Origin: Candidatus Woesearchaeota archaeon | GTDB lineage: Archaea > Nanobdellota > Nanobdellia > Woesearchaeales > JAGVYF01 | DNA: 46,606 bases | Direction of reading: 5' to 3' | NCBI GenBank assembly: GCA_018303425.1 | Contig: JAGVYF010000034.1 | Coordinates: forward strand, 1-46,606 | Part shown: one piece after another, positions 28,947 to 45,326 of the stretch | Layout of the letters: each line of letters begins with the position of its first letter | Numbering within the stretch: position 1 is the first letter of the stretch | The notes under the pieces: generated by a model | What the model was told of the DNA's origin: nothing | What the model saw: the letters and a program-made list of their open reading frames with translations, nothing else | The model's database searches: none | Translations under genes and position numbers: made by a program

Positions 28947-29744
28947 ATGACCGTATTTCTTAACGTGAAAAAAGAGGATATGAAATTATTGATTGACCAT
29001 GGCCTGGGACTTGATAAGACTAAAACAAAGTACGAGATAATGCGTTTACGCGGTTCATGCGTTGCAATTCTTTTTACTTCCGGTAAACTTCTTATTCAGG
29101 GTTCAGATGTAAATGTGTCGCGATATAGAGACCTGATGATTGCTAAAGGATTTAAGGAACCGACAAAAATAGAATATGTTTCTCAATCAGGATTATTTAT
29201 TGGTTCAGATGAATCATTGAAAGGAGACACTTTCGGCGGACTTGTTGTTGTAGGTGTAAAAGCAGATGATGTTGTTCGCGAAAACCTTAAAATTCTTGGC
29301 GTAATGGACTCTAAAAAATTAAAAGATTCGTCAATACCGCTACTGGCACAAAACATTAAAAAAATAGCTAAAGTATCAATTAGAAATATTTATCCTGAAA
29401 AATATAATCAATATAATCAAACTGAACTTATGAATAAACTGCATAAAACAGTAGCTGACGAACTAAGTCCAGGCACGCATGTAGTTGATAAATATCCCGG
29501 ATGCAATGTAGGTGATATAGCTGTAACTAAGGGTGAATCTAAATATGTAGAAATTGCCGCCGCATCAATTATTGCGCGAGATGAAGCATTATCACAGATA
29601 GGAGATTTAAGTAACAAGTTAGGTTTTGATATTCCTAAAGGTTCAACACATGTGAAATCAGCTTTGGAACTGCTTAAAAAATCAGGTAAAGATCCAAACC
29701 AATTTATTAAGATGCATTTCAAAAACATAAAACCCTATTTTTAA
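28947..29744 (+). CDS. rnhC: Ribonuclease HIII
   Basis: A 265-residue type 2 RNase H. Residues 1-75 are an N-terminal TBP-like substrate-binding domain (LRGSCVAILFTSGKLLIQGSD), which marks HIII rather than HII. The catalytic core has Asp88-Glu89 in IGSDESLKGDTFGG (the family usually has GSDEVGxGD), Asp121 in MDSKKLKD, Asp181 in VVDKYP, and AAASIIARD. It removes RNA from RNA-DNA hybrids. HIII is mainly bacterial, and a normal archaeal RNase HII also lies in this window at 44682. Confidence 0.88.
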   Translation: MTVFLNVKKEDMKLLIDHGLGLDKTKTKYEIMRLRGSCVAILFTSGKLLIQGSDVNVSRYRDLMIAKGFKEPTKIEYVSQSGLFIGSDESLKGDTFGGLVVVGVKADDVVRENLKILGVMDSKKLKDSSIPLLAQNIKKIAKVSIRNIYPEKYNQYNQTELMNKLHKTVADELSPGTHVVDKYPGCNVGDIAVTKGESKYVEIAAASIIARDEALSQIGDLSNKLGFDIPKGSTHVKSALELLKKSGKDPNQFIKMHFKNIKPYF

Positions 29745-38283: not shown

Positions 38284-38342
38284 GACCTTAGAAACCACTA
38301 ATTTTATAAATAGTTAATAATTCAAAGAGAATATCCGTTTAA

Positions 38343-38462
38343 AGCCCCGTAGTGTAGCGGCCAATCATCTTGCCCTTTGGATGCTTTATGCAAAAGATAG
38401 GCGAGGACCACGGTTCGAATTTGCGCTGTAAAATATCGCAAACGAAAATCCGTGCGGGGCTA
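38343..38462 (+). tRNA. tRNA-Gln(UUG) with two introns (37/38 and 59/60)
   Basis: The mature tRNA is AGCCCCG / CGGGGCT acceptor stem with A73, D arm GTGT...TCAT, anticodon stem TTGCC / GGCGA with anticodon TTG (38377-38379), 4-base variable loop and T stem CACGG / CCGTG. Intron 1 is 38381-38398 (18 bases) at the canonical 37/38 site: CTTT pairs with AAAG between the 3-base bulges GGA and ATA, and TGC pairs with GCA. Intron 2 is 38420-38448 (29 bases) in the T loop: TTCG pairs with CGAA beside AAT bulges, and TTGCG pairs with CGCAA. Cutting after the second base of each bulge restores TTCGAATCC exactly. Both are bulge-helix-bulge sites for the archaeal splicing endonuclease. A T7 run follows. 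Confidence 0.9.
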
Positions 38463-38532
38463 TTTTTTTAGTTTTTAATCAGTCCCTATGTTTTTCCCGG
38501 GGTTTTATTAAAACGCTGTGCGGGGCTATTTT
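38452..38532 (+). repeat. Duplicated 3' end of the tRNA-Gln gene
   Basis: GTGCGGGGCTATTTT occurs at the end of the tRNA (38452-38466) and again at 38518-38532. The second copy has no tRNA body. It could be an old attachment-site scar or a duplication of the tRNA end with its terminator. Confidence 0.5.
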
Positions 38533-38571: not shown

Positions 38572-42806
<4,235 letters not shown>

Positions 42807-44681: not shown

Positions 44682-45326
44682 ATGATAATTGCTATCGATG
44701 AAGCGGGCAAAGGTCCGGTTATAGGTCCGTTAATCATGTGCGGAATTTTAATTGAAGAAGAAAAAGTGCAAAAACTTATTGATATTGGTGTTAAAGATAG
44801 CAAGCTTCTTACACCAAACAAACGTGAAGAACTTTTTCCTGAAGTTAAAAAAATAGTTAAATCTTACAAAGTTATTTCAGTAAATCCTGCGGAACTTGAC
44901 AGTTTGATGAAATCAGGGACAAATCTTAACAGGATTGAACTTCTGAAAACTGCCGAAATAATTAACTCATTAGAGGGAGATAAAGCAATTATTGATTGCC
45001 CATCAGTAAACCTTGAGGCATACAAAAGAGAATTACTTGCGCAGCTTAGCCGCAAAGTTGCGCTTATTGTTGAACATAAAGCCGATTTCAACTATCCTGA
45101 AGTAGGCGCAGCCTCAATCATTGCAAAAGTTATACGCGATACTGAAATAAAAAAATTACAAGAACAGTATGACGCAGACTTTGGCTCAGGCTACATGTCA
45201 GATCCATTAACTCAAAAATTTATAGAAGAAAACTGGCAAAAGTATCCTGAACTGTTTAGGCATTCTTGGTCAAGTTGGAAAGATTTAGCATTCAATAAGA
45301 ATCAGAGTAAATTGGACGATTTCTAA
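44682..45326 (+). CDS. rnhB: Ribonuclease HII
   Basis: A 214-residue archaeal RNase HII: Asp6-Glu7 in AIDEAGKGPVIGP, KDSKLLTPNKR, Asp105 in IIDCPS, Asp135 in HKAD, and AASIIAKVIRD. It cuts RNA in RNA-DNA hybrids and at single ribonucleotides. It ends GSGYMSDPLT...HSWSSWKDL as usual. It starts 32 bases after eS1, in the same direction. RNase HIII at 28947 may share its job. Confidence 0.95.
   Translation: MIIAIDEAGKGPVIGPLIMCGILIEEEKVQKLIDIGVKDSKLLTPNKREELFPEVKKIVKSYKVISVNPAELDSLMKSGTNLNRIELLKTAEIINSLEGDKAIIDCPSVNLEAYKRELLAQLSRKVALIVEHKADFNYPEVGAASIIAKVIRDTEIKKLQEQYDADFGSGYMSDPLTQKFIEENWQKYPELFRHSWSSWKDLAFNKNQSKLDDF

Follow-up and report, generated by a model that had tools for sequence, protein, structure and literature searches.

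Analysis of the window, a stretch of 46,606 nucleotides from a Candidatus Woesearchaeota archaeon (contig JAGVYF010000034.1), revealed a tRNA-Gln(UUG) gene interrupted by two introns, one in the anticodon loop and the other in the T loop. With high probability this is a functional gene, the sole Gln tRNA found in a DPANN-like archaeon, whose two bulge-helix-bulge (BHB) introns are removed by a splicing endonuclease (EndA) of the single-subunit type and whose exons are then joined by RNA ligation. The prevalence of T-loop introns in this genome would follow from the T arm, which already supplies half of a BHB.

A tRNA-Gln(UUG) gene with two strict BHB introns

The genome holding the window is archaeal (937 kb in 39 contigs, 96% complete, with archaeal rRNAs), and Woesearchaeales is a DPANN order of very many families. 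The tRNA gene is flanked by an ABC-2 transporter gene and gyrB (Table 1). The latter (38635-41838, + strand) encodes DNA gyrase subunit B of bacterial affinity with an intein at residues ~431-863, and a search with GyrB returned bacterial matches only. Genes for a ribonuclease HIII-like protein (28947-29744, below its cut-off) and ribonuclease HII (44682-45326) also occur together in the window of this one small archaeal genome.

Table 1. Features of the tRNA-Gln(UUG) locus, in window coordinates
Feature	Position	Strand	Remark
TATA-box-like promoter element, TTTATAAATA	38303..38312	+	30 bases between its end and the tRNA 5' end; putative function, judged from sequence
tRNA-Gln(UUG) gene	38343..38462	+
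Exon 1	38343..38380	+	tRNA positions 1-37
Intron 1, ATGCTTTATGCAAAAGAT	38381..38398	+	18 nt, at 37/38
Exon 2	38399..38419	+	tRNA positions 38-59
Intron 2, TTTGCGCTGTAAAATATCGCAAACGAAAA	38420..38448	+	29 nt, at 59/60 (T loop)
Exon 3	38449..38462	+	tRNA positions 60-73
15-bp direct repeat GTGCGGGGCTATTTT, copy 1	38452..38466	+	end of tRNA-Gln
Run of seven T	38463..38469	+	immediately 3' of tRNA-Gln; probable terminator
Class B hairpin repeat, CAGCGTTTTAATAAAACCCCGGGAAAAACA...	38485..38518	-	antisense to tRNA-Gln, between the 15-bp copies
15-bp direct repeat, copy 2	38518..38532	+	orphan duplicate of the tRNA-Gln 3' end

Removal of both introns yields AGCCCCGTAGTGTAGCGGCCAATCATCTTGCCCTTTGGAGGCGAGGACCACGGTTCGAATCCGTGCGGGGCTA, a normal 73-nt cloverleaf with the anticodon TTG in which the acceptor, anticodon and T stems are all full. 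An earlier note on this DNA had proposed the two introns and near-perfect BHB structures at both junctions; coordinates, lengths and junctions agree with it, and a cut after base 2 of each 3-nt bulge gives CTTTGGA (with the anticodon) and TTCGAAT (T loop), the restored loops that it had expected. Both introns form a strict 3-4-3 BHB, with 3-nt bulges, 4/4 pairs in the 4-bp central helix and 5 outer pairs, to which the intron-aware parser adds 3 inner pairs for intron 1 and 6 for intron 2. The first motif consists of the exon stem TTGCC/GGCGA, bulge GGA, central helix CTTT/AAAG, bulge ATA and inner stem TGC/GCA; the second of the T stem CACGG/CCGTG, bulge AAT, central helix TTCG/CGAA, bulge AAT and inner stem TTGCG/CGCAA.

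When the letters of each intron were shuffled with the boundaries fixed, the BHB score was equalled by 369 of 200,000 sequences for intron 1 (0.2%) and by 4 of 200,000 for intron 2 (0.002%). The fold z-score was -2.3 for the precursor and -3.3 for the T arm with its intron. The T-loop BHB is strongly favoured thermodynamically (central-helix pair probabilities 0.80-0.92); the minimum-energy structure does not contain the anticodon BHB, whose pairs reach 6-8% and whose fold lies 1.6 kcal/mol above an alternative. We infer that the gene would be transcribed in vivo as a single precursor containing both introns, that EndA would cut them out at 37/38 and 59/60, and that RNA ligation would then join the exons.

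The gene escaped both ARAGORN with default settings and Rfam at its gathering threshold, as might be expected of a decayed tRNA-Gln carrying two random insertions. Such a pseudogene is nevertheless extremely improbable, given the intact stems of the spliced product, the strict BHBs at both junctions and the same intron pattern in ~20 essential tRNAs of the genome. Moreover, a Gln-specific pattern allowing up to 2 mismatches found no second Gln tRNA in the 96%-complete genome, and the second, intron-free tRNA-Gln(UUG) that figures in the earlier note's refuting case was not found. When trained on 13 T-loop-intron tRNAs of this genome, the Gln gene itself among them, a covariance model matches the gene at 62.2 bits. 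Since default searches overlook many tRNAs in these genomes, tRNA counts for them may be underestimates.

T-loop introns across the genome

The Rfam tRNA model reported 9 tRNAs above its cut-off in this genome, compared with 6 to 42 in 60 relatives. Our census relied on patterns and models (weak Rfam matches, a D-arm pattern and the intron-aware parser) and is incomplete; it located ~31 tRNA genes, of which ~27 have an intron, 20 have one at 59/60 and ~14 have at least two. Introns at 59/60 occur in the tRNAs for Gln, Arg(TCT), Arg(GCG), Arg(CCT), Ala(TGC), Ala(GGC), Gly(CCC), Gly(GCC), Phe, Asn, Ile(GAT), Ile(TAT), elongator Met, Asp, Glu, Pro(TGG), Ser(GCT), Lys, Tyr and Trp; 16 of the 20 were called by the full parser, and Lys, Tyr, Trp and Arg(CCT) by T-arm search alone. 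A separate T-arm pattern search of the genome gave no gain over its control. By eye, D-loop introns are also apparent in the Lys, Arg(CCT) and Ser(GGA) tRNAs, and only Val(TAC), Cys, Ser(TGA) and Leu(CAA) appear intron-free in this incomplete census. Introns at both 37/38 and 59/60 were also seen in a tRNA with the anticodon UAU (Ile; G000:C6:7697-7787).

The earlier note had regarded paired introns as notable here, and multi-intron tRNAs with non-canonical introns as known mainly from Thermoproteales and a few other archaea. With a 59/60 intron in ~20 of the 31 located tRNA genes, tRNA-Gln is unexceptional in its own genome, and intron-rich tRNA sets are reported outside Thermoproteales as well (PMC11291895).

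An alignment of 13 T-loop-intron tRNAs showed no gaps near the junctions, T-stem pairs at 100% and central-helix pairs at 100/100/100/62%. None of the T-loop introns matched a known RNA family in Rfam at E <= 1. Two families of related introns, class A and class B, occur in the genome, and neither Gln intron belongs to either. The class A introns (about five of the T-loop introns) all begin with TATTA and end in a sequence resembling GAGAAAA; the hairpin that they have in common contains an asymmetric internal loop, and 3/4 central positions are paired.

This recurrence would follow from the T arm itself. The TTCG(AA) of the T loop is self-complementary, so that inserts ending in CGAA+AA(T) would create a 4-bp central helix with TTCG, and the five-pair T stem would serve as the outer helix. 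Because TTCG pairs with CGAA, itself T-loop sequence, any segment duplicating or carrying CGAA+AA before T60 would complete the BHB.

T-loop introns in relatives of the order

We then searched 40 relatives with R1, a covariance model of T-loop-intron tRNAs, and obtained matches in 40/40, some of them to intron-free tRNAs. Among the 25 best matches that could be solved (one of them from the genome under study), 20 have a 59/60 intron, and these are spread over many other families of the order. The 3' ends of the 59/60 introns are mostly CGAAAA, TGAAAG or AGAAAR. Compensatory G57-C and A57-U changes accompany the T-loop introns in relatives: position 57 and its intron partner are G57-C in 12, G57-U in 3, A57-U in 9 and A57-C in 1 of 25 introns (Fisher p = 0.001, a test somewhat biased because the parser demands at least 3/4 central pairs). 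In 7 further introns, outside the 25 tested, a purine stands opposite position 57.

In Gln tRNAs the site is rarely occupied. Within the sister genus, genome G001 has a Gln tRNA with a single intron, at 37/38, whereas genome G002 has an intron-free UUG gene and a CUG gene whose 59/60 site holds a 28-nt intron. This CUG gene and the studied gene are the only 2 of 34 solved Gln genes of the order with a 59/60 intron, and two further Gln tRNAs (one TTG, one CTG) carry introns. In view of this rarity, the T-loop intron of the studied gene appears to be either a recent gain or one that has been lost many times.

One recognisable, loop-less splicing endonuclease

Many non-canonical tRNA introns are associated in the literature with EndAs that have an extra loop and a broad specificity. 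The EndA gene of this genome, which adjoins the RNase Z gene, encodes 176 aa with PF02778 and PF01974 domains, a TIGR00324 match and the Y/H/K residues. A single gene of ~180 aa with N-terminal and catalytic domains is characteristic of the alpha4 type, and the protein is closest to the catalytic EndA of N. equitans and the alpha4 EndA of M. jannaschii. Compared with the A. pernix alpha subunit (3p1z_B), it has a 10-residue gap where the specificity loop and Lys44 sit (Lys44 being located by counting along the printed chain of 3p1z_B), and the loop insertion was not found in EndA of 30 relatives either. The enzyme presumably assembles as an alpha4 homotetramer, as judged from the single gene. 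An (alpha-beta)2 enzyme with the crenarchaeal loop is not indicated, as neither a second subunit gene nor the Lys44 loop was found; nor is an epsilon2 enzyme, a three-unit fusion of ~390 aa, matched by this protein.

The earlier note had argued that a heteromeric endonuclease would be needed and had proposed a search for an epsilon-type enzyme. This need is not supported: the only recognisable EndA of the genome is this loop-less single unit, the one PF01974 match at E <= 10. Loop-less alpha4 and alpha'2 enzymes are classed as narrow, and relaxed motifs are efficiently removed only by (alpha-beta)2 and epsilon2 enzymes (PMC6379350). As the Gln introns are strict BHBs, a broad-specificity enzyme is not required for them, and motifs of this kind should suit a loop-less EndA. 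Because the fourth central pair is mismatched in the ~5 class A introns, some relaxation of the enzyme's specificity is possible.

The same mismatches would also suit a broad-specificity heteromer whose second subunit is too divergent for detection, and the nearest solved EndA is indeed the catalytic alpha subunit of the N. equitans (alpha-beta)2 enzyme. We consider such a heteromer improbable, since no second PF01974 protein was found in the genome at E <= 10 and almost all of 59 relatives likewise have one such gene. Furthermore, phmmer with the 176-aa EndA retrieves the N. equitans beta subunit at 2e-12, so a comparable beta subunit here should have been detected.

A hairpin repeat shared by T-loop introns and duplicated tRNA 3' ends

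The class B repeat forms the 5' part of five T-loop introns, those of Gly(CCC), Gly(GCC), Ala(GGC), Ile(TAT) and Ser(GCT). It also lies in antisense behind the Gln, iMet and Arg(CCT) tRNAs, followed in each case by a duplicate of the respective tRNA 3' end. The copy behind tRNA-Gln scores 32.2 bits (E 7e-8), being itself one of the seven model sequences. The orphan Gln 3' end was considered as an alternative exon 3 and rejected, because CGCT stands before it in place of the CGAAAAT that the BHB requires.

Genome G001 of the sister genus has related copies, one within the T-loop intron of a tRNA-Ser and others beside two further tRNAs. Behind a different tRNA-Ser (L222:560-1200) lies a tandem array of about five near-identical units of ~100 bp, each ending in the 3' end of that tRNA, with a run of N inside the array. 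In the genome under study, a hairpin repeat near the start of the RNase Z gene (L010:950-1120) is flanked by a direct duplication of ~30 bp of that gene's 5' end. Independently of the class B repeat, the 3' end is duplicated 62-94 bp downstream, in some cases twice, at 7 of 34 Gln loci of the order, compared with 1 of 1122 in the shuffled control, and upstream duplicates were found at 0 of 34. Several of the inserts at these duplicated ends hold an inverted T-loop hairpin (GGATTCGAAC...GTTCGAATCC).

Conceivably, the T-loop introns go back to a short hairpin repeat, mobile or duplicating, whose targets are tRNA genes, with insertion into the T loop giving an intron, and insertion with 3'-end duplication giving the orphan ends at Gln, iMet and Arg(CCT). 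The class B copies on both kinds of site, the sister-genus copies with their array, the duplication at the RNase Z gene and the excess of downstream duplicates at Gln loci all accord with this origin, which we regard as possible though unlikely. The Gln T-loop intron itself has no sequence match to class B, and the majority of 59/60 introns show no relation to this repeat; the seven copies behind the model were all tRNA-linked, and only 1 of 3 new strong genomic copies lies in a tRNA. Neither an enzyme nor an empty-site pair was found, and slippage with tandem duplication could produce the arrays. The fuller proposal appears rather unlikely: that the repeat is mobile in the order and prefers tRNA T arms and 3' ends, that the self-complementary TTCGAA gives its T-loop insertions a ready BHB so that they are kept as introns, and that the orphan Gln 3' end is a by-product.

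Comparison with known systems and significance

Introns at 59/60, multiple introns and intron transposition are already known (PMC4090602, PMC4033280). In Thermoproteales (Pyrobaculum etc.), as here, a tRNA may have two or three BHB introns, including at 59/60, and different tRNAs of one genome share similar intron sequences (PMC4090602, PMC4033280). Transposed introns of the Thermoproteales type would be near-identical between tRNAs; the introns related to one another here are those of class A and class B, which include neither Gln intron. In Thermoproteales an (alpha-beta)2 EndA with the specificity loop accompanies introns at many sites, whereas here a loop-less single EndA accompanies a dominant 59/60 site. 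The Asgard Atabeyarchaeia and Freyarchaeia, of a different phylum, are similarly intron-rich, with introns in >90% of tRNA genes, several in over half and often non-canonical, but a dominant single T-loop site is not reported in the available part of the source (PMC11291895). ARMAN-2 is likewise an ultrasmall archaeon with non-canonical tRNA introns, but its EndA is the epsilon2 three-unit fusion (PMC12397907). For Caldiarchaeum, a mobile-element model of tRNA intron gain has been proposed from a disrupted tRNA-Thr gene, in which an intron was gained next to a putative mobile element and a fragment of a tRNA (PMC3293823); that element is 1.8 kb and codes for a recombinase, whereas the hairpin repeat here is gene-less and tens to ~100 bp long.

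Our literature search found no description of such tRNA introns in Woesearchaeota-like archaea or DPANN, and nothing matching for Cas1-type insertion at tRNA genes. As far as the literature searched shows, two observations are new: a non-canonical site that dominates in this lineage alongside one loop-less EndA, and a hairpin repeat shared by T-loop introns and duplicated tRNA 3' ends.

The whole order seems to pair frequent T-loop introns, mostly strict BHBs, with a single loop-less EndA, a combination which makes the idea of EndA/intron co-evolution testable. The shared repeat and the duplicated 3' ends provide material on the origin of archaeal tRNA introns and, if the introns do derive from a mobile repeat, would point to a direct way of gaining tRNA introns while the specificity of EndA stays narrow.
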